This document shows, piece after piece, positions 5,932-33,719 of a DNA stretch of 33,719 bases. Position 1 is the stretch's first letter, and the number at the start of each line of letters is the position of its first letter. The notes under the pieces are model-generated. The model saw nothing but the letters and a program-made list of their open reading frames with translations, searched no databases and was not told the DNA's origin. The position numbers were made by a program, and so were the translations under genes. The stretch lies in assembly GCA_947377275.1 (NCBI GenBank), contig CANCFV010000023.1:1-33719 (forward strand), written 5' to 3'. Source of the DNA: Burkholderiales bacterium. GTDB taxonomy: Bacteria; Pseudomonadota; Gammaproteobacteria; Burkholderiales; Burkholderiaceae_C.

Positions 5932-6723
5932 TCATTGCACGAAGCTGGCGGCCAACGAGCCCAGCAGCAGGTTCCAGCCATCGGCCATCACGAACAGCAT
6001 CAGCTTGAAGGGCAGCGAGACCATCACGGGCGACAGCATCATCATCCCCAGGCTCATGAGCACGCTGGCCACGATCATGTCGATCACCAGGAAGGGAATG
6101 AAGATGAGGAAGCCGATCTGGAAGGCCGACTTGAGTTCGCTGGTGACAAAGGCCGGCACCAACACGCGAAAGGGCACGGTCTCGGGCTTGACGTCGCCTT
6201 CGAGGCGGGCGAGCTTGGCAAACAGACCCAGGTCAGACTGCCGGGTTTGCTTGAGCATGAAAGAGCGCATCGGGACCTGTCCGCGCTCCAGGGCCTCGTT
6301 GAAGCTGATCTGGTTGGCAGCGAAGGGCTCGTAGGCGTCTTTGTAGACTTTGTCGAGCGTGGGGCCCATCACGAAGAAGGTGAGGAACAGCGACAAGCCC
6401 ACCACCACCTGGTTGGGCGGCGCCGCCTGCGTGCCCAGCGCCTGACGCATCAAGCCCAGCACGATCACGATGCGGGTGAAGCCCGTCATCATCAACAACA
6501 GCGCAGGCAAGAAGCTCAGGGCCGTGAAGAACAACAAGGTTTGCACGGGCACCGAATAGTTGGTGCCGCCCGCGCCCTGCCCCACCAGCAAGGGCAAGTT
6601 GCTGCCCACGTTGGGCGCCACAGACTGCGCCAAGGTGGCACCGGCAAAGAGGCTCAAACCCAAGGCCATCAGCGCGCGAACCCAACGCTGACGAAGCACG
6701 GGCGATGTGGAGAGACCGCTCAT
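5932..6723 (-). CDS. fliP: Flagellar export gate protein FliP
   Basis: Core of the flagellar export gate; five or six copies with FliQ and FliR form the secretion channel. The 263-residue protein has an N-terminal signal-like segment ([20 protein letters not shown]), then transmembrane and family segments [37 protein letters not shown] and, near the C-terminus, [19 protein letters not shown] and [19 protein letters not shown]. The ATG at 6723 overlaps the fliO stop by ATGA, typical of coupled flagellar genes. The reading frame stays open further upstream to 7041, but that extension lies inside fliO and is not FliP-like. Confidence 0.97.
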
Positions 6724-7067
6724 GCCGCGTCCTTCATGCCCAGCGAGCGGCGCAAGATCGAGGCGAAGTTGGGCACTTCGCCCGGTGTGGCATCCAATGC
6801 GACGCCTGCAGGCATCGTGTGCAAGGTGTTGATCTGCTGAGCGGTCACGCCCAAGACCAACCAGGTGCGGGCATCGCCAGAGCCCACTTCGACCGTGACC
6901 AGGCGCTGGCCTGGGCCGATGTTGAGCTGGCTCACAGGCTTGATCAGGCTGGCATGGGCGCCCACGCCGCCCGTGGCCAAGCCAGAGCGCTTGAGCAACC
7001 ACAGGGTGATGGGGATCAGGGCCACGATGACCACGAACCACAAAACCGTCAATCCGCTCGATGCCAT
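6720..7067 (-). CDS. fliO: Flagellar biosynthesis protein FliO
   Basis: Small bitopic membrane protein that helps FliP assemble in the export gate. It has 115 residues from the ATG at 7067; one transmembrane helix (about 5-25, [20 protein letters not shown]) is followed by a cytoplasmic domain with [18 protein letters not shown]-like features (here [19 protein letters not shown]), which is the conserved FliO core. A TTG six bases upstream, overlapping the fliN stop (TTGA), is an alternative start that would add two residues. It ends in a 4-base overlap with fliP. FliO is poorly conserved, so position between fliN and fliP is part of the evidence. Confidence 0.92.
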
Positions 7068-8615: not shown

Positions 8616-9269
8616 TCACTGGATGATGAAGTTCGCGTAGTGCACCTGCACGATCGGGTTGTAAGACTCGACCTTCTTTTTCTTCTTCTTTTTCTTTTTG
8701 CCAGATGCTTCGGCAGCCTTGGCGGCTTCGTCTTCGTCTTCTGGATCTTCGATTTCGTAGCCCATGGCACGGGCGGCCTCGCGCTTGATCTCTTCGGCCA
8801 GCTTTTGCTTGCCTTCGACGGAGAGCAGCTCTTCAGAGGTCTTGTGCGAGAGGATCAGCAACACCGCGTTGCGGATGGCGGGCATGTAGGCCTTCATCTC
8901 TTCGGCCAGGTGGGCGTCGTCGAGCTGCAGGTTGATGCCGACCTGGGCAAAGCGCTCGGTCTCGCGGTCGGCCAGGTTGACGACGAAGGGCTCTAGGGGC
9001 ACGAAGGTTGGCGGGCCCTTGTGCTCTTCCTTGCCGTGCTCAGGCTTCTTGGCCTCTTTGGCTGGCGCGGCGTGTTCGCCACCGCCATCGCCGTCTTCAC
9101 CTTCTGCGGCAGCAGCGGCCTCGGCGTCGGCCTTTTTCTTCATCATGAAGAAAGCGCCACCACCACCCACCACCAACAGCAGGACCACCGCGGCGATGAT
9201 GATGATGAGTTTCTTGGAGCCCTTTTTGGGGGCTTCGCCTTCGGCCGGTGCGGCGGGGGCTGCTGACAT
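8616..9269 (-). CDS. fliL: Flagellar basal body-associated protein FliL with a nine-lysine tract
   Basis: Single-pass inner-membrane protein that surrounds or supports the MotAB stator. The 217 residues include a transmembrane helix (about 24-46, LIIIIAAVVLLLVVGGGGAFF), an acidic and Lys-rich linker, and the periplasmic stomatin-like domain beginning PTFVPLEPFVVNLADRE and ending VQVHYANFIIQ. It is longer than E. coli FliL (154). Two parts explain this: the linker after the membrane helix and an insertion before the C-terminus made of an acidic stretch (EDPEDEDEAAKAAEASG) then nine consecutive lysines (residues 191-199). The ATG at 9269 has AGGAG eight bases upstream; an in-frame TTG at 9290 is less likely. 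It opens the fliLMNOPQR group; 143 bases separate it from fliK, with no promoter recognised there. Confidence 0.95.
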   Translation of the reverse strand: MSAAPAAPAEGEAPKKGSKKLIIIIAAVVLLLVVGGGGAFFMMKKKADAEAAAAAEGEDGDGGGEHAAPAKEAKKPEHGKEEHKGPPTFVPLEPFVVNLADRETERFAQVGINLQLDDAHLAEEMKAYMPAIRNAVLLILSHKTSEELLSVEGKQKLAEEIKREAARAMGYEIEDPEDEDEAAKAAEASGKKKKKKKKKVESYNPIVQVHYANFIIQ

Positions 9270-9412
9270 GCGCTGATCTCCTGGTGTCAAGACCGAGGCT
9301 CACAGATGCGCCAAGGTCATGAGGGGATTATTGGAAGTCAGCGGTTTATCGATGGATCAATAAGCGACGTGAAACACAGTCGATTCCCGGCGGCCTGTCC
9401 GCGTGACAAAGC

Positions 9413-10840
9413 TCACGCGTACAGGTCCAGTCCACCCAGACGACCCGAGCGCGGCACGCTGACTTGGCGCACGCTCAGGGCATCGGGCTCACCAGCAGCC
9501 TCGCCAAGGCCCGTCCCGCGGCCACCACGGCCCGAGGCGCCCGGCATCCCTGGTGCGTTCTGTTGAGACTGGGCGAACTGCTGCTGTGCGGTTTGCGACG
9601 ACACATCGCCCCCGGTCATGCTCAAGCCCACGTCGCTCAGGGCGGACGACAAGGTCGACAAGCTGGCCTCAATGGCCTGCCTCGTTTCTAACGCGGCGGC
9701 AGCGAAGTCCACCTGCGCCACTGAGCCATCGAGTGAAATTTTCACGTTGATGGGCCCCATCTCGGCCGGGTTGAGGTGCAACTCGGCGGTCATCGGGCCC
9801 TCGGTCACCGACTTGCTCACCCACAGGCTGACCTGATCGCTCAGGGCTTGGGTGAAATCAGGGCTGTTCAGCGGCGTCGGCAGGGTGGCCGATTCCTGGC
9901 GAACGCCTTGGGCGTCGCTCAACGTTTGTTTGAAGCTGGCGGCCTGGGCACCGCTGACGCTGGCCAAAGGGTCCAGGTCCGCTCGCCCTTCTTTGCCAGC
10001 ACGCGTGGCCGCACCCGTGAGGGCTTCGCTTTGCAGTGCGGTCGTTGCGTTGGCGCCGTGCCACGCGCGGGCCTCCAGTGTCATGCCCTGACCTTTTCCG
10101 TCAGTGGGTCGGGCATCTGCCTTGGGGTCGCCCTTGCCCACGGCGGCCAAGCCGCGCTCAGTGCCCGCTTCGCCCTCTGTTGCTTTGGCGCCCTCGCCCT
10201 CCTGCGCGACACCGGCCTGTTGCGCGTGACCGTGCGTGAACGACGCCAGCCACGCCATCATCCCGGCCGAATCGCCCGCCTGGATGGTGGGCGGAGGCGT
10301 GAGTTCACGCACAACGGCAGCGCCCTCACCCATCGCGGTGCTGAAATTGACTTCGTCTTCTTTCTTGGCCGCTGACGCCTCGGCGGCCTCTGCCGGGTCT
10401 TTCTCGGCGGCCTCATTCGGGCGTGCGGTGGCGTTGCCTTTGGCAACCGGCTTGCCCTGGTTGCTGGCGGTGGCGGCCTTGGCTGACGACGATGGCGACG
10501 CAGAAGCACTTGTGCTGCTCGCCCCCGAAGGCGCCGGCTTCGCCTGTGGCCCCGCCTGTTGGCGCGCACGTGCCATGGCCTGCTCGGTCAAGCGGTTGGC
10601 CGCAGGTGCCTTGGCCGAATTCAGGGTGCCAGGCGCAGGGGCTGCAGGTTTGGCCGCTTCGCTGGGCTGAGCCGCCTTGTCCGGCAAGATGGCGTGCTTT
10701 TCAAGCCAGCGCGAAAACGCTGCCTGATCGCTGTTGCCACTGCCTTGCGCGTTGAGGCGAGCCATCAAGTCGTTGGTTGACGGGCTACCGTTGGTCGCGC
10801 CGCTGCCGTTGATGCCTGAAGATTTGATCGGTGTCGACAT
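9413..10840 (-). CDS. fliK: Flagellar hook-length control protein FliK
   Basis: Secreted molecular ruler that measures the hook and switches export from hook to filament proteins. The 475-residue protein has a long low-complexity Ala/Pro/Ser/Gly/Gln-rich N-terminal part, as FliK ruler regions do, and a conserved C-terminal switch domain. That domain includes ALSDQVSLWVSKSVTEGPM, the signature AELHLNPAEMGPINVKISL, then VDFAAAALETRQAIEASL and LRDALS-type LSSALSDVGLS. The tail is Gln-rich (TAQQQFAQSQQ). An AAGGAA Shine-Dalgarno sequence precedes the ATG. It is the last gene of the fliFGHIJK run, 51 bases after fliJ. Confidence 0.94.
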   Translation of the reverse strand: MSTPIKSSGINGSGATNGSPSTNDLMARLNAQGSGNSDQAAFSRWLEKHAILPDKAAQPSEAAKPAAPAPGTLNSAKAPAANRLTEQAMARARQQAGPQAKPAPSGASSTSASASPSSSAKAATASNQGKPVAKGNATARPNEAAEKDPAEAAEASAAKKEDEVNFSTAMGEGAAVVRELTPPPTIQAGDSAGMMAWLASFTHGHAQQAGVAQEGEGAKATEGEAGTERGLAAVGKGDPKADARPTDGKGQGMTLEARAWHGANATTALQSEALTGAATRAGKEGRADLDPLASVSGAQAASFKQTLSDAQGVRQESATLPTPLNSPDFTQALSDQVSLWVSKSVTEGPMTAELHLNPAEMGPINVKISLDGSVAQVDFAAAALETRQAIEASLSTLSSALSDVGLSMTGGDVSSQTAQQQFAQSQQNAPGMPGASGRGGRGTGLGEAAGEPDALSVRQVSVPRSGRLGGLDLYA

Positions 10841-11413: not shown

Positions 11414-12844
11414 TCAGGTGGACACGGTGTGGTGCAACTGCTCGACGCTGTCGCCCATGAACGCGGGCTCGTTCATGCCTTGCTGTAACAACCCCACCAT
11501 GGCCGGGTGTGCGCGCACAGCTTGGTCCAGGTCGTGGTCATGGCCGGGTGAGTAAGCACCCAACTGGATCAGGTCGCGGGCCTTGCTGTACTTCGACCAC
11601 ATTTGGCGGAAGCGTCGCGCATCATCGATATGGTGAACGTCTGCGACGTTGTGCATCACCCGAGAAGCACTGCGTTCGATGTCTATTGCTGGGAAATGGC
11701 CTGACTCGGCCAGCTCACGCGAGAGCACGATGTGGCCATCCAAAATGGCGCGGGCCGCATCTGCAATGGGGTCTTGCTGGTCATCGCCCTCAGACAGGAC
11801 GGTGTAAAAGGCCGTGATCGAGCCGTGCCCATTGAGGCCATTGCCGCTGCGCTCAACCAGCTGAGGCAGTTTGGCGAAGCACGATGGCGGGTAGCCCTTG
11901 GTGGCGGGCGGCTCACCAATGGCCAGCGCGATTTCACGCTGGGCCATGGCGTAGCGCGTGAGCGAGTCCATCAACAAGAGCACATGCAGGCCCTGGTCGC
12001 GGAAATGCTCGGCCACGGCGGTAGCGTAGTTGGCGCCTTGCATGCGGGTCAGGGGCGGCGCGTCGGCCGGAGCGGCCACCACCACCGAGCGGGCCAGCCC
12101 GTCTTCGCCCAAGATGTCTTCGATGAATTCTTTGACTTCGCGGCCCCGCTCGCCGATCAGGCCCACCACGATGACGTCGGCCTGCGTGTAGCGGGCCATC
12201 ATGCCCAGCAGCACGCTCTTGCCCACGCCCGAGCCGGCGAACAAGCCGATGCGCTGACCACGGCCCACGGTGAGCATCGAATTGATGGCGCGCACGCCCG
12301 TGTCCAGCGGCAGGCGCACCGGGTCGCGCTCCATCGCGTTGATCGGGCGACGTGCCAGGGGCTCGCTGCGCACGTGCTGCAGCGCGCCTTTGCGGTCCAT
12401 GGGCTCGCCTTGGGCATTGACCACGCGGCCCAGCAGGCCACTGCCAATGGGCAAGTGGCGCGTGCGGTCTTCGCTGCGGCGCCAAGGGTGGTTCGGGCGA
12501 CCCAGCACCGGCGGGTTGATCGGGATGGTGCGGGGCACCACGCGGGCGCCGCTGGACAGGCCGTGCACCTCGGCCGTGGGCATCAGGTAGGCACGGTCGC
12601 CAGCAAAGCCCACCACCTCGGCCAGCGCTGGGGTGGATTCGAGCCGGGTTTCAGAATGGATCTCGCACACGGCGCCCACCGGCAAACGCAGGCCCGCAGC
12701 CTCCAGCACCAGGCCGGCCACACGCACCAGCTTGCCCTGGTTCTCCAGCGGCAGCCGCGCACCCGCGCAGGCATCCAGGTCGTCCAGGAAGCGGCTCCAG
12801 CGGTCCATCTCAAGATCTTGACGGCCGCGAATGGGCATGTTCAT
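11414..12844 (-). CDS. fliI: Flagellum-specific ATPase FliI
   Basis: Cytoplasmic F1-beta-like ATPase that energises the flagellar type III export system. The 476 residues show Walker A AGSGVGKS (about 199-206), the family block LIGERGREVKEFIED with its catalytic Glu, Walker B VLLLMDSLTRYA (about 280-291) and GEPPATKGYPPSCFAKLPQL. The first ATG (12844) overlaps the fliH stop by ATGA and has a strong GGAGGA six bases upstream, which decides the start over the ATG two codons later. Slightly longer than E. coli FliI (457). Confidence 0.98.
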   Translation of the reverse strand: MNMPIRGRQDLEMDRWSRFLDDLDACAGARLPLENQGKLVRVAGLVLEAAGLRLPVGAVCEIHSETRLESTPALAEVVGFAGDRAYLMPTAEVHGLSSGARVVPRTIPINPPVLGRPNHPWRRSEDRTRHLPIGSGLLGRVVNAQGEPMDRKGALQHVRSEPLARRPINAMERDPVRLPLDTGVRAINSMLTVGRGQRIGLFAGSGVGKSVLLGMMARYTQADVIVVGLIGERGREVKEFIEDILGEDGLARSVVVAAPADAPPLTRMQGANYATAVAEHFRDQGLHVLLLMDSLTRYAMAQREIALAIGEPPATKGYPPSCFAKLPQLVERSGNGLNGHGSITAFYTVLSEGDDQQDPIADAARAILDGHIVLSRELAESGHFPAIDIERSASRVMHNVADVHHIDDARRFRQMWSKYSKARDLIQLGAYSPGHDHDLDQAVRAHPAMVGLLQQGMNEPAFMGDSVEQLHHTVST

Positions 12845-28266: not shown

Positions 28267-29625
<1,359 letters not shown>

Positions 29626-29627
29626 GC

Positions 29628-30635
29628 ATGGACTTCAACACCTTTTTGCCGGTGCTGTTCTGGCTGCTGATGGGCACGGCCATGCTGGTCTACGTCATTT
29701 TGGATGGCTACGATCTGGGCGTGGGCCTGCTGCTGCCCTGGACGAAAGACGACGCTGAGCGTGACCTGATGGTTGCCTCCATCGGGCCCTTCTGGGATGC
29801 CAACGAAACCTGGTTGGTGCTGGGCGTGGGCCTGCTGTTGGTGGCCTTCCCCAAGGCGCAGGGTGTGGTGCTGGGCGCGCTGTACCTGCCCGTGGCGGCC
29901 ATGCTGCTGGGCCTGATCGTGCGGGGCGTGGCCTTTGACTTTCGCGTCAAGGCGCATGCACAGCACAAGCCTTTGTGGAACCGCTTGTTCGCCGCAGGCT
30001 CTTTGCTGGCGTCGGTGTCGCAGGGCTGGATGCTGGGACGCTATGTGATGGGCTTGGCCGACACGCCGGCCGCCTGGGTGTTTGCCGCGCTGATTGCGGT
30101 GGCGCTGCCCGTGACCTACGCCTTGCTGGGGGCGTGCTGGCTGATCCTCAAGACCGAAGGGGCGCTGCAGGCCAAGGCCGTGCAATGGGCCAAGCTGGCG
30201 TGGCCGGCCATGGTGGTGGCTTTGCTGGCCGTGTCGGTGGTCACGCCCTTGTTCAGCGCCACGGTGCGCGAGCGCTGGTTCAGCTTCCCCAATGTGCTGG
30301 CGCTGCTGCCAGTGCCCGTGATGTCAGGGCTGGCGCTGGTGGCGCTGCGGGGCTTGTTGAACTCGCACCGCATTGTGGGCGATGCTGGCAAGCTGTGCTG
30401 GCTGCCCATGGTGTTGGCCATTGGGGTGATGCTAGTGGGCGGCATGGGCCTGGCTTACAGCCTCTACCCCTACGTGGTGCTGGACCAGATCACCGTGTGG
30501 CAAGCGGCCAGCGCACCGGGCTCGCTCAAGATGCTGCTGGTGGGGGTTTGCATCAGCCTGCCTGCAATCGCAGCGTACACGGTGTTTGTGTACCGCGTGT
30601 TCGGGGGCAAGGCACAAACCTGGCACTACGCTTGA
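29628..30635 (+). CDS. cydB: Cytochrome bd-type quinol oxidase subunit II
   Basis: Membrane partner of CydA, 335 residues with about eight helices. The conserved start is seen: LPVLFWLLMGTAMLVYVILD followed by GYDLGVGLLLPW, then the block GPFWDANETWLVLGVGLLLV with VRGVAFDFR. The ATG at 29628 has AAGGAG eight bases upstream and lies two bases after the cydA stop (an overlapping TTG at 29622 is less likely). No third subunit gene (CydX or DUF2474-like) follows: the next gene, on the other strand, ends 41 bases downstream. Confidence 0.95.
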   Translation: MDFNTFLPVLFWLLMGTAMLVYVILDGYDLGVGLLLPWTKDDAERDLMVASIGPFWDANETWLVLGVGLLLVAFPKAQGVVLGALYLPVAAMLLGLIVRGVAFDFRVKAHAQHKPLWNRLFAAGSLLASVSQGWMLGRYVMGLADTPAAWVFAALIAVALPVTYALLGACWLILKTEGALQAKAVQWAKLAWPAMVVALLAVSVVTPLFSATVRERWFSFPNVLALLPVPVMSGLALVALRGLLNSHRIVGDAGKLCWLPMVLAIGVMLVGGMGLAYSLYPYVVLDQITVWQAASAPGSLKMLLVGVCISLPAIAAYTVFVYRVFGGKAQTWHYA

Positions 30636-30676: not shown

Positions 30677-31741
30677 TCAGTTCTGCTTGTCGCGCCAGGC
30701 GCTGGGGGTGGCACCTTCCCAGCGCTTGAACGCGGCCGTGAAGGCGCGGCGGTCTGAAAAGCCCAGGCGTGCGCTGATGTCGTCGATCGAGACCTCGCCC
30801 TGGCGCAGCCATTGGCAAGCAAGTCGGTGGCGCATGCGGGCCTGCACGTGCAAGTAGCTGTCGTTCTCGTCCTTGAGGCGACGCTGCAGCGTGCGGGGGT
30901 GCAGGTTGAGCCGATCGGCCATTTCTTCGACGCCAAGGGCCAACAAGGCGGGTTCGCGGGTGATGAACTCTTCGATCTCGGCCGCCACGCCCTGGCGGCG
31001 CGCTTCTTTGCCCACACGTTGCTCGGCCAAGAACTGCGCTTGCTCGTGCAGCGCCGGGAAAGCGCCCTCAAGCGGGATGTCGAGGATGCGTCGCTCAAAC
31101 ACCAAGGCGTCAAACGGTGCGTTGAAGGTCACAGGCACGCCAAAGAAGGGCTCGAACTGCGCCGCGTAAGGTGGTGCATCGCCCTTGAGCGTCACGCCCA
31201 CAAAGCCCTCTTCGCTTCCCTGCAATGTGCGGCCGAACTTGCGAATACAGGCCAGCAAGGCTTGCGTCACCAGGTGCAAGGGCAGACCAAAGGCTTCGAT
31301 GTTAGGGAGGGGCACATCCAAACCCACCAAGACCCGAGCCACATCGCCTTCTTCTTTGACCTCCAGCGTCAACCAAGGCAACACGATGCGGCGGGCCAGA
31401 TCGGCCACACCCAAAGCCTCTCGCAAAGTCGAGCTGGTGGTCAGGAGCGTTTCAAACTCGGGCAGCGACTCGAATGCGAACGTGTCACCCAAGACCAGCG
31501 GGAAATGCTTGTCGGGCGACAGGGCCACGCACTGTTCCAGCAGCGAAACGAGCTGCAAAGGCGAAACGCGCGCGTCTTCCAAGCGGATCAAGTCAATCTT
31601 GATGCCTGCTTCTTTGAACAAAGGCTGGACATTGAAGCCACACTTCGCCGAGGCCTTGATCCAGGCCGACAGCATGAACAGCGGGATGGGCTTGATGCCA
31701 AGGGCTTCAAGCACGGCAGTGGGGGGCAGTGGAATGCGCAT
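30677..31741 (-). CDS. AraC-family transcriptional regulator, paralogue of the 26214-27281 gene
   Basis: 354-residue regulator. The N-terminal ligand domain starts MRIPLPPTAVLEALGIKP and has KCGFNVQPLFKEAGIKI. The C-terminal AraC domain shows VEEMADRLNLHPRTLQRRLK and DISARLGFSDRRAFTAAFKR, then WEGATPSAWR. The motif GFSDRRAFTxAFKRW and the NLHPRTLQRR/GLHPRTLQRR segments are shared with the first AraC protein, so they are paralogues. The ATG at 31741 is preferred; a GTG at 31756 (5 codons upstream) is in frame. A perfect 9-bp inverted repeat lies 10 bases upstream of the ATG. It is downstream of two tandem diiron-like 'hydrolase' genes on the same strand and converges with cydB. Confidence 0.88.
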   Translation of the reverse strand: MRIPLPPTAVLEALGIKPIPLFMLSAWIKASAKCGFNVQPLFKEAGIKIDLIRLEDARVSPLQLVSLLEQCVALSPDKHFPLVLGDTFAFESLPEFETLLTTSSTLREALGVADLARRIVLPWLTLEVKEEGDVARVLVGLDVPLPNIEAFGLPLHLVTQALLACIRKFGRTLQGSEEGFVGVTLKGDAPPYAAQFEPFFGVPVTFNAPFDALVFERRILDIPLEGAFPALHEQAQFLAEQRVGKEARRQGVAAEIEEFITREPALLALGVEEMADRLNLHPRTLQRRLKDENDSYLHVQARMRHRLACQWLRQGEVSIDDISARLGFSDRRAFTAAFKRWEGATPSAWRDKQN

Positions 31742-31750
31742 AAACGAAAT

Positions 31751-31775
31751 CGGCACACCCGGATGAGGTGTGCCG
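31751..31775 (-). promoter_or_regulatory. Perfect 9-bp inverted repeat before the AraC gene
   Basis: CGGCACACC / GGTGTGCCG with a 7-base spacer. On the minus strand it is followed by ATTTCGTTT, then the ATG. It could be a terminator for the upstream hydrolase-like gene, an operator, or a leader hairpin close to the ribosome-binding region. Confidence 0.5.
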
Positions 31776-31837
31776 AAGTCTAACCAACTACGACAAAGTG
31801 AATCGGTGAAATTTCAACGCCCCTGCAGGGCGCTCAC

Positions 31838-32725
31838 TCATCGCGCCATGGCCGCGCGCATCAGTTCGCTGGCTTCGATCGGATCGTTGTGCTTGTTGAA
31901 CGCGGCCAGCCATTCCTCGTAGCCAGGCTGCTCGGTTTCTTGCCAGGGGTGGTAGCCGGGCTTGTAGTACTGCACGTAGTGCTTGTACAGGGGCGCCACG
32001 AAACCGGCGGGCTTGAGCAACCACCAAATGCCCTTGGCGAACAGCTTGGCGCGTTGCAGCAAGCCGTAGCCGTCGGCCTTGAGCATCTCGTTGGTGAACA
32101 TCAAGATCACATACGGGAAGATGAAGGTGGCATGCAACAGCGCGGCAGCGCGCTTGAAGTAGCCCACCTTGGCGTAGTCGATCATGACGTCGTACGCAAC
32201 GCCCTTGTGCTCGACTTCCTCAATGGAGTGCCAGGCGTACATGGCGCGCACTTTGGGGTGCGCCGAGGCCATGATGTCGCGCTCGTCGAACATGGCGTGG
32301 GCGCCCAAGGCCGTGAAGTGCTCGAGCGCACCCGTGATGGCCAAGGTGTATTCGCGGCTGAAGCGGCTGCGGTACTTGTCAAACAGCAGCTTGTCGAGCC
32401 AGCCAATCAAGCGTTCAACGGGCATGCCTTGCTTGCGCAGCACGTCGTTGTACTGGGCGTGGACCATGCTGTGTTGGGCTTCCTGACGGTTGAAGTCCTT
32501 GATGTCTTGCAGCAGCTTGGGGTCGTTGATCTGGTCACGAAAGTCGCGCACCGTCACCATGAAGAACTTCTCGCCGGGCGGGAAGATCAGCGACATGGCG
32601 TCAAAGAAGCGCGTCTTGAAGGCGTCACCACCAAACCAGTACTTTGGGATGCTGGGGTCGTCCAGGCCAAAGTCCAGCTTTTCACGCGGGATGATGGGGT
32701 GTTGTTTGTCTGTGTTGTGAGCCAC
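31838..32725 (-). CDS. 'Predicted metal-dependent hydrolase' (PF10118-like) with a diiron-type Glu/His pattern, copy 1
   Basis: Of unknown biochemical function. The 295-residue protein resembles the PF10118 family, named a metal-dependent hydrolase without, as far as I know, a proven reaction. The conserved metal-binding candidates are Glu52 (GEKFF), E82AQH85 in NRQEAQHSMVH, Glu135 (in ALEHFTALGAH), and E170VEH173 in HSIEEVEHKGVAYD. They are spaced 30, 53 and 35 residues apart. That pattern is E, ExxH, E, ExxH, as in diiron carboxylate enzymes. A hydrophobic helix LLHATFIFPYVILMF is near residue 198. The GTG at 32725 is preferred; the ATG at 32827 is in frame, but its extra 34 residues look non-coding. 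Copy 2 starts beyond the terminator upstream. Confidence 0.8.
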   Translation of the reverse strand: MAHNTDKQHPIIPREKLDFGLDDPSIPKYWFGGDAFKTRFFDAMSLIFPPGEKFFMVTVRDFRDQINDPKLLQDIKDFNRQEAQHSMVHAQYNDVLRKQGMPVERLIGWLDKLLFDKYRSRFSREYTLAITGALEHFTALGAHAMFDERDIMASAHPKVRAMYAWHSIEEVEHKGVAYDVMIDYAKVGYFKRAAALLHATFIFPYVILMFTNEMLKADGYGLLQRAKLFAKGIWWLLKPAGFVAPLYKHYVQYYKPGYHPWQETEQPGYEEWLAAFNKHNDPIEASELMRAAMAR

Positions 32726-32883
32726 GGTGTGAGCCTTTGGATGTTGTCTCCACGATGGCTCAACTGTAAGCACGGGCGAAGCGTTTCCACAGGATGAAGG
32801 GTGACAGCAGGGTTTCGGCAACGACATTCACTGCCAGGTACTTTCACTAGGTTTGACGTGGACTTAGCGGCGTGTCTCACATG

Positions 32884-32911
32884 AAAAAGGGCCCCCAACG
32901 GGCCCTTCTTT
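32884..32911 (-). terminator. Rho-independent terminator between the two hydrolase-like genes
   Basis: Perfect 8-bp stem AAGGGCCC / GGGCCCTT, loop of five bases. Read on the minus strand it is followed by a five-T run, including bases of the stem. It lies about 30 bases after the copy-2 stop, so the two copies are separate transcripts or only weakly linked. Confidence 0.8.
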
Positions 32912-32939
32912 ACCGGCTTTCAGCGCCGCTTGATCCGGG

Positions 32940-33719
32940 TCAAACCGACAGCGCCAGATCCTTGCGCATTTGTTCGCTGGCCTGGATGGGGTCTTGGCGC
33001 AGATTGAACGCGGCCAGCCACTGTTCGTAGCCGTGCTGCTCCGTCTCTTGCCAGGGGTGATAGCCCGGCTTGTAGTAGGTCAGGTAGTGCTTGTACATCG
33101 GTGCCAGCAAACCACCTGGCTTGAGCAGCCACCACATGCCCTTGGCCATGATGCCCATGCGTTGCTTGAAGCTGAACCCGTCGTGGATCAGCAGTTTGCG
33201 TTGGATGTGGAAGATCGTGGCAGGGAACAGCACGCTGGCGTGCAGCAGGCCCAGCACGCGCTTGAAGTAGCCGGCCTTGGCGTAGTCGATCATGACGTCG
33301 TAGGCCACGCCCTTGTGCTCGACCTCTTCAATGGCGTGCCAAGCGTACATGGCGCGCACGCGGTGGTCGGCGTGTTTCATCACGTCGCGCTTGTCGAACA
33401 GGCTGTGCGCGATGATCGAGGTGAAGTGCTCCAAGGCCGATGTGACCGACAGCGTGTGCTCGCGGGTGTACTTGCTGCGGTACTCGGTGTTGAGCAGGTT
33501 GTTGACGTATTGCGTCAGCGCGTCCACGTCGACGCCTTGCTTGCGCAGGCGCTCGTTGTCTTGGCGGTGGACCATGCCGTGCTGCGCTTCCTGACGGTTG
33601 AAGTCACGGATGTCTTGCAGCATCTTCGGGTCTTGGATCTGGTCGCGGAAATCGCGCACGCAGTTCATGAAGAACTTTTCGCCGGGCGGGAAGATGATCG
33701 ACAGGGCATCCCAGAAGCG
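32940..33719 (-). CDS. 'Predicted metal-dependent hydrolase' (PF10118-like), copy 2, N-terminus beyond the window
   Basis: Paralogue of the gene at 31838-32725; well over half of aligned residues are identical by eye. The visible 259 residues run in from the window edge (RFWDALSIIFPPGEKFF). They contain the same metal candidates in the same spacing: the Glu in GEKFF, NRQEAQHGMVH, ALEHFTSIIAH and AIEEVEHKGVAYD. The C-terminus MYKHYLTYYKPGYHPWQETE is also shared. Tandem duplication is the simplest origin. The start lies outside the window, so its promoter is not visible. Confidence 0.85.
   Translation of the reverse strand, partial: RFWDALSIIFPPGEKFFMNCVRDFRDQIQDPKMLQDIRDFNRQEAQHGMVHRQDNERLRKQGVDVDALTQYVNNLLNTEYRSKYTREHTLSVTSALEHFTSIIAHSLFDKRDVMKHADHRVRAMYAWHAIEEVEHKGVAYDVMIDYAKAGYFKRVLGLLHASVLFPATIFHIQRKLLIHDGFSFKQRMGIMAKGMWWLLKPGGLLAPMYKHYLTYYKPGYHPWQETEQHGYEQWLAAFNLRQDPIQASEQMRKDLALSV

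Follow-up and report, generated by a model that had tools for sequence, protein, structure and literature searches.

Paired PF10118 proteins encoded beside an AraC-type regulator in a Burkholderiales genome are probable COQ7/AurF-like diiron oxygenases

The 33,719-nucleotide stretch of contig CANCFV010000023.1 from a Burkholderiales bacterium (assembly GCA_947377275.1), here called the window, ends in two tandem genes for proteins of Pfam family PF10118 (Metal_hydrol, "Predicted metal-dependent hydrolase"), which are accompanied by a gene for an AraC-type regulator. We propose that both proteins, copy 1 and copy 2, are probably O2-activating diiron oxygenases of a COQ7/AurF-like kind that act on a lipid or hydrocarbon and are induced through the AraC sensor. 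The elements of this proposal differ in strength: we are highly confident of the ferritin-like fold and metal site and consider an O2-using oxidation likely, a lipid or hydrocarbon substrate is favored on balance, and hydroxylation has about even chances against another outcome. The observations are explained much better by a ferritin-like diiron carboxylate protein than by a hydrolase, because of the invariant residues, their placement on four helices, the best 50 of 361 fold matches, and the COQ7 and AurF profiles. The name "metal-dependent hydrolase" is probably wrong for the family as a whole. A preliminary description of the window had already suggested an O2-using diiron enzyme instead of a hydrolase; a ferritin-like diiron protein is supported by conservation, models, fold matches, and profiles, and reaction and substrate are put forward here with the reserve just given.

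Family Assignment and Conserved Residues

Both copies score far above the curated PF10118 cut-off of 33.2 bits (245.3 bits and E 9.8e-73 for copy 1; 216.4 bits and E 6.6e-64 for copy 2), and they share 65% sequence identity with each other. An NCBIfam scan of the two proteins returned no fitting model. Sequence searches of the PDB gave chance matches: ornithine carbamoyltransferase (E 0.47) was the single one for copy 1, and alpha-actinin (E 0.078) and MCM3 (E 0.33) were those for the 46-row family profile described below.

Copy 1 contains E52, E82, H85, E135, E170, and H173, with spacings of 30, 53, and 35 residues, and the equivalent residues in copy 2 are E14, E44, H47, E97, E132, and H135. 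The motif ExxH occurs only at positions 82 and 170 of copy 1 and at positions 44 and 132 of copy 2. Read from the translations, these residues and spacings are the same as in the preliminary description. The pattern by itself is weak evidence, since six residues at similar spacings turned up in 1,677 of 100,000 random rearrangements of the copy 1 residues, a number that falls to 62 of 100,000 when the extra histidine discussed below has to be present as well.

Judging from the alignments, it is conservation, not the spaced pattern, that argues strongly for the site. We aligned 46 PF10118 members that are 20–90% identical to copy 1, two L003 rows duplicating L001 having been dropped from an initial 48. 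All six residues are invariant, and the whole alignment has only 12 invariant columns: P49, E52, E82, H85, H89, E135, H136, H166, E169, E170, H173, and D179. Ten of the 30 Glu and His residues of copy 1 are thus invariant. In a second set of 43 sequences, comprising the window copies, their related loci, and relatives from viral contigs, E82, H85, E135, H166, E170, and H173 are present in every row and E52 in 42; the remaining row is truncated and has a gap at this position.

H166 (H128 in copy 2) is a seventh candidate ligand, absent from the preliminary list, and its addition renders the ligand set AurF-like. Together, E52, E82xxH85, E135, and H166xxxE170xxH173 form a putative three-His/four-Glu set of the type found in AurF, CmlI, and DnfA.

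The residue preceding the first ExxH motif is a near-invariant Gln81 (Table 1), present in 43 of 43 rows of the second set. Excerpts of PMC12101540 describe the motifs QExxH and HxxDExxH, a third histidine, and acyl-chain substrates for the dimetal halogenases CylC and NocO, enzymes also marked by nine conserved residues. The shared elements QExxH and HxxxExxH raise the idea that PF10118 proteins are C–H halogenases or related dimetal enzymes acting on acyl chains, which we hold to be hardly probable at all: the second motif reads HxxEExxH in place of HxxDExxH in a comparison limited to the published motifs; Gln81 is not diagnostic, because a COQ7 sequence (L182) also reads QExxH; and a biosynthetic cluster was not noted among the gene contexts seen.

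Predicted Fold

AlphaFold2 yielded confident, all-helical models of both proteins, with a pLDDT (predicted local distance difference test) of 91.0 and a pTM (predicted template modeling score) of 0.90 for copy 1, and values of 89.5 and 0.85 for copy 2. The preliminary description had looked to a four-helix bundle, and in both models the six residues are found on four long helices (Table 1 for copy 1; helices 2–22, 31–60, 86–109, and 119–146 for copy 2). Judged by helix placement, the predicted bundle, with E, ExxH, E, and ExxH on successive long helices, is ferritin-like. When the copy 1 model was compared with the PDB using Foldseek, the best 50 of 361 matches were all dinuclear-metal carboxylate proteins, including the R2 subunit of ribonucleotide reductase (called R2 here), R2-like ligand-binding oxidase, methane monooxygenase hydroxylase, AurF, CmlI, stearoyl-ACP desaturase, and aldehyde deformylating oxygenase. 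Against viral models, 8 of the best 50 of 93 matches had a probability of at least 0.95; among the seven of these that carry names, six are R2 subunits and the other is of the rubrerythrin type. As far as models can tell, the fold class is clear, and the nearest structure inside the class is not.

These comparisons bear on two other explanations. The first, that PF10118 proteins are true metal-dependent hydrolases or proteases, has in its favor the Pfam name and the only paper retrieved by the PF10118 accession, in which genomic correlation and co-expression led to Prot_241, a group of this family, being listed among candidate proteases for lanthipeptides (excerpts of PMC8960859); it was the hydrolase name that placed the family on this list. 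That listing is a correlation only, no hydrolase occurs among the best 50 of the 361 PDB matches, and the order of the ligands and the helices are as in diiron carboxylate proteins; we therefore consider this explanation very improbable. The second explanation is a diiron or Mn/Fe protein that has no role as a small-molecule oxygenase, such as a scavenger of peroxide or O2 or a self-oxidizing, R2lox-like ligand-binding oxidase. Entries of the latter type are frequent among the same best 50 matches, and one mycobacterial plasmid encodes an annotated oxidase of this type in the vicinity of PF10118. R2, however, scores below COQ7 in the profile comparisons and does not have the third histidine, and several PF10118 gene contexts look catabolic, so that such a protein seems improbable to us.

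Relationship to Other Diiron Families

Profile–profile comparison with hhalign placed the 46-row PF10118 alignment closest to COQ7, the demethoxyubiquinone hydroxylase (13 rows; E 1.2e-5, probability 81%). Comparison with AurF gave E 0.0035 when four HxxDExxH rows were used and 0.007 when twelve were used, and R2 was at about the same level (0.0074); PaaA/PaaC gave no signal (0.41). As controls, eight unrelated families and a reversed AurF set resulted in E values of 0.13–0.54, and reversed COQ7, R2, and PaaA/C sets in values of 0.26–0.42. A column-shuffle control, which covers COQ7 and the four-row AurF set only, was beaten 100 times out of 100 by each of the two (best shuffled E 0.036 and 0.038, respectively). 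The profile rows were picked by open-frame length, which left out L172 (R2), L193 (COQ7), and L207 (PaaAC), with L204 unused; the twelve-row AurF set contains some over-long frames and leaves out L139, L140, and loci below cut-off.

Sequence profiles thus suggest that PF10118 is nearest to COQ7 and then to AurF, and that acyl-ACP desaturase is alike only in a general way. The preliminary description had drawn its comparison with the last of these. COQ7 fits the spacings better, and acyl-ACP desaturase (PF03405) as closest kin was rejected: it had no Pfam match, and its hhalign E of 0.2, obtained with one sequence (L157, the sole strong one from 200 genomes), is at control level. The profile–profile search against ferritin-like families that had been advised there recovered COQ7 and AurF, with the desaturase no better than the controls.

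Of the 46 individual members, 16 match the Pfam AurF model, 3 match Rubrerythrin, and 1 matches COQ7 (E 0.044), with E values allowed up to 1 and a best AurF value of 9.2e-6. Since there are matches to unrelated models, too (to Pox_G5 in one member, at E 4.6e-4, and to DUF592 in three), single weak Pfam matches were not relied on. The AurF matches would be compatible with the same fold and site working on a nitrogen substrate, that is, with an N-oxygenase like AurF, CmlI, or DnfA or with a hydroxylamine oxidase. We regard this as unlikely, in that the stronger profile match is COQ7, a C-hydroxylase, the contexts seen favor lipids and hydrocarbons, and the Asp residues preceding E136 and E227 of AurF, second-shell residues whose roles are treated in excerpts of PMC12101540, correspond to Gln81 and Glu169 here.

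Gene Context and Expression

Copy 2, copy 1, and the AraC-type regulator are transcribed in this order on the minus strand between positions 30677 and 33719. The sequence copy–copy–AraC is kept in all three close relatives (L036–L038), and a second PF10118 pair in this genome also adjoins an AraC gene. The preliminary description regarded the regulator and the paired copies as one small oxidation system, which is plausible given the same order in the three relatives, the nature of the oxidation being a matter for the proposal below. The Arabinose_bd domain of the regulator has 12 matches in this genome.

Other contexts point to hydrophobic substrates. In the family tree, the row nearest to the window's group outside Burkholderiales (sister, 100/99) comes from an Acinetobacter plasmid, on which the PF10118 gene lies in a cassette with genes for a CypR AraC regulator, a 2Fe-2S ferredoxin, a P450, a ferredoxin reductase, TetR, a BtrH-like protein, and two PaaI thioesterases. 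The AraC protein of this plasmid scores as CypR with 507.3 bits versus a cut-off of 500. CypR governs alkane P450 genes, as the name of the model also hints. On mycobacterial plasmids, PF10118 genes lie within several kb of genes for fatty acyl-CoA ligase, N,N-dimethyl-4-nitrosoaniline (NDMA)-dependent alcohol dehydrogenase, flavin monooxygenases, or short-chain dehydrogenases/reductases (SDRs). In Rhodococcus fascians, the PF10118 gene is followed by one for an FNR-type reductase, whose best NCBIfam matches, below cut-off, are PaaE and MmoC, and then by a limonene-epoxide-hydrolase-like gene. One PF10118 copy of the window's own genome lies directly 3′ of an acyl-CoA dehydrogenase gene, with an acyl-CoA ligase gene 4 kb further on. 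The neighbor clusters found in at least 4 loci, labeled mostly by eye, are SDR, acyl-CoA ligase, acyl-CoA dehydrogenase, TetR, RND (resistance-nodulation-division), and flavin monooxygenase.

On two mycobacterial plasmids, genes annotated as R2-like or ferritin-like lie near PF10118. On pMyong1 (L164), a PF10118 gene and an annotated R2-like ligand-binding oxidase gene (6004–6879 and 12267–12774) are about 5 kb apart, and the stretch that separates them encodes a BtrH-like protein, an NDMA-dependent alcohol dehydrogenase, and a fatty acyl-CoA ligase. On L165, an annotated ferritin-like protein (8633–9556; weak AurF match, E 3.3e-4) is encoded two genes from PF10118 and is flanked by SDR and flavin monooxygenase genes. 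BtrH-like genes are near PF10118 on L165 and L084, too.

The PF10118 relative of Pseudomonas aeruginosa that adjoins oruR is PA0830 by position, oruR being PA0831 (excerpts of PMC2714965). Residue 244 of the plasmid-borne protein is Tyr, in agreement with the PA0830 Y244H variant in excerpts of PMC10804958. According to excerpts of PMC5736630, PA0830 occupies the second place, at 16.9-fold, among the listed PAO1 genes induced at a hexadecane–water interface, and the same list includes alkB2, the flavin monooxygenase PA1538, the SDR PA3427, and the acyl-CoA dehydrogenase PA2550. Among the listings seen in our search of the open-licence PMC literature, no paper describes PF10118 as a diiron protein. 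The family is not mentioned in the available excerpts of the alkane-regulator papers PMC3664771, PMC4763211, and PMC11784139 or of the GliR paper PMC8151288, and PMC6610081 and PMC7969949 contributed nothing of use. A "metal-dependent hydrolase" beside prmABCD (PMC4428276) was not used as evidence.

Proposed Mechanism

We infer metal, O2 chemistry, substrate, electron donor, and regulation as follows. Two metal ions, most likely iron, would be bound by E52, E82, H85, E135, H166, E170, and H173, with the invariant E169 and the near-invariant Q81 as presumed second-shell residues. COQ7 is reduced directly by NADH. The PF10118 site would be reduced either in this way or via a ferredoxin-type reductase; the lack of a constant reductase neighbor fits direct reduction by NADH as in COQ7, or shared ferredoxins. 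Once reduced, the site would activate O2 and oxidize a C–H bond, with hydroxylation as the first choice and desaturation as the second. The substrate would be hydrophobic, for instance an alkane, a fatty acyl chain, or a similar lipid, and the AraC regulator would sense the substrate or product and switch the genes on. A hydrophobic stretch in helix 189–217, where the Kyte–Doolittle maximum over 19 residues is 1.82 for copy 1 and 1.49 for copy 2, may dock the protein on a membrane or on oil. The maximum falls in this region in 27 of the 46 family members, and 18 of the 46 maxima reach 1.6.

Several observations weigh against this proposal. The Foldseek matches in the PDB are weak, with a best E of 0.068, TM scores of about 0.3–0.5, and none at E ≤ 0.001. 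For AurF and R2, hhalign assigns a probability of just 5–9%, and the order of families below COQ7 is loose as a consequence. The Pfam AurF model (PF11583) scores 18.1 bits with copy 1 versus a cut-off of 29.6, which none of the window's proteins reaches, and does not match copy 2, neither copy matches Pfam COQ7 (PF03232) at E up to 10, and the four-row AurF alignment puts E52 opposite Arg, not Glu. As for the context, a comparable AraC gene is found no more than 1.5 kb away in just 17 of 58 stretches (the window, 7 relatives, 10 plasmids, and 40 other genome stretches; the G114 regions and several G078 and G032 copies are wholly or partly outside this count). Neither a ferredoxin nor a reductase is among the neighbor clusters in at least 4 loci, and many copies adjoin unrelated genes, for example in L087, L089, L090, L092, and L114; genes for glycolysis, translation, glutamate synthase, or efflux are among the neighbors of other copies. 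The hexadecane result is a correlation from one strain, and, in excerpts of PMC3411652, PA0830 is down about 4-fold in the chemotaxis/signaling mutants PA2572 and PA2573.

Should the proposal of a diiron oxygenase be true, the annotation of lipid and hydrocarbon metabolism would gain an oxygenase family, and PA0830, induced and unexplained in P. aeruginosa, would be given a testable role.

Features of the Locus

Table 1. Coordinates of genes, candidate metal-ligand codons, and possible terminators at the PF10118 locus (residue numbers refer to copy 1)
Feature	Position	Strand	Remarks
Copy 2, PF10118	32940–33719	minus	259 residues seen; 5′ end cut by window edge
Copy 1, PF10118	31838–32725	minus	295 residues; GTG start at 32725
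AraC-type regulator, Arabinose_bd domain	30677–31741	minus	listed from GTG 31756; PF12625 E 2.3e-24, HTH_18 E 1.3e-18
Stem of 11 bp with T-rich tail, resembling a terminator, between copy 1 and regulator	31750–31776	minus	motif scan
Possible terminator, GC-rich 8-bp hairpin followed by Ts, past copy 2 stop	32887–32907	minus	by eye; not reported by scan
E52 codon, candidate metal ligand, helix 35–60	32570–32572	minus	invariant, 46/46
E82xxH85, candidate ligands, helix 69–98, preceded by Q81	32471–32482	minus	E82 and H85 46/46; Q81 42/46, Glu in 4
E135 codon, candidate ligand, helix 124–147	32321–32323	minus	46/46
H166xxE169-E170xxH173, helix 157–184	32207–32230	minus	candidate ligands H166, E170, and H173; all four residues 46/46

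The first codon of copy 1, a GTG, corresponds to a methionine in the relatives L036–L038, with ATG at the matching position. For the regulator, the ATG at 31741 appears from the sequence to be a likelier start than the listed GTG, because the latter sits within the 11-bp stem. The evidence for a terminator at this stem is weak, since the scan of the region found 2 sites where 1.8 are expected by chance. Beside the regulator, two adjoining plus-strand genes (28267–30635) have, by eye, the look of cytochrome bd-type oxidase subunits, and genes related to them are located near the same PF10118 pair in L036–L038.

Distribution of the Family

The nearest public relatives found, with 89–91% identity, carry the labels Aquabacterium parvum, Comamonadaceae bacterium 2PF, and Burkholderiales metagenome-assembled genome. 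The window's genome has six PF10118 copies. Counting this genome, all 31 of the genus carry the family, at 2–14 copies each and often in tandem. Across a sample of the phylum, it was detected in 23 of 150 genomes. Of 72,556 plasmid records, 79 contain it, and where a gene is listed in the rows seen, the annotation is metal-dependent hydrolase. A tree of 62 rows, in which bootstrapping had not fully settled, puts copy 1 and copy 2 in separate groups (100/99 and 100/97). Each group holds orthologues from L036, L037, and L038, indicating that the pair predates these species and that both copies were kept.

PF10118 genes also occur in IMG/VR contigs of 259–345 kb (L044, 9980–10756; L048, 9917–10735; L054, 9959–10741; L055, 9965–10759). 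In three of these four contigs, the neighbors include Mtd_N (major tropism determinant) genes and papain- or subtilisin-like proteases, and two also have pectate-lyase folds. Of the 41 viral loci found, five are represented in the tree, where they cluster together (100/100), and the viral PF10118 proteins have no clear match in PHROGs. These genes would place a candidate diiron protein within tail-fiber regions of large phages.

Comparison with Known Diiron Enzymes

The closest correspondence is with COQ7, of which this genome has a separate, true representative. E48, E78, H81, E130, E164, and H167 of COQ7 align with E52, E82, H85, E135, E170, and H173 of PF10118, all six in register, and the spacings are 30, 52, and 34 residues compared with 30, 53, and 35. 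The QExxH motif of L182 adds to this likeness. The two families differ in that L182 has Phe opposite the invariant H166 and that the C-terminal part of PF10118 is about 100 residues longer.

With AurF-type proteins, the likeness extends to the third histidine. In the twelve-row alignment, E88, E123, H126, E182, H209, E213, and H216 of L134 align with all seven candidate ligands of PF10118, and D212 of L134 aligns with E169 of copy 1. A difference is that the contexts of PF10118 are lipid-like as far as seen. L134 itself (1474–2433), a protein from a genome of the window's taxonomic family, is probably a hydroxylamine oxidase of the DnfA type, because its ligand numbers equal those printed for DnfA, a three-His/four-carboxylate enzyme, in excerpts of PMC9478400.

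R2 and the R2-like ligand-binding oxidases belong to the same fold class by Foldseek, and six of their ligands align with those of PF10118, with Ile in R2 at the position of the third histidine. Stearoyl-ACP desaturase shares the ligand order and the middle spacing, going by the numbers for the castor enzyme in the preliminary description, and the castor and ivy enzymes are among the best 50 of the 361 fold matches. DtpC belongs to a separate, heme-oxygenase-like class (excerpts of PMC13232832).

In sequence terms, PF10118 thus combines the spacing and QExxH motif of COQ7 with an AurF-like third histidine, which, if the proposal is true, would be a new diiron site to compare with the known ones. 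We tentatively suggest, as a possibility short of a probable one, that PF10118 constitutes an unrecognized diiron oxygenase family that depends on O2 and is separate from AlkB, CYP153, AlmA, and the soluble methane-type monooxygenases. With its COQ7-like spacing and AurF-like three-His/four-Glu site, it would oxidize long-chain alkanes or fatty acyl or alkyl lipids under the control of AraC regulators of the CypR/OruR type. In this view, the family has multiplied to 2–14 copies in each genome of the window's genus and has a lineage of its own in large phages.

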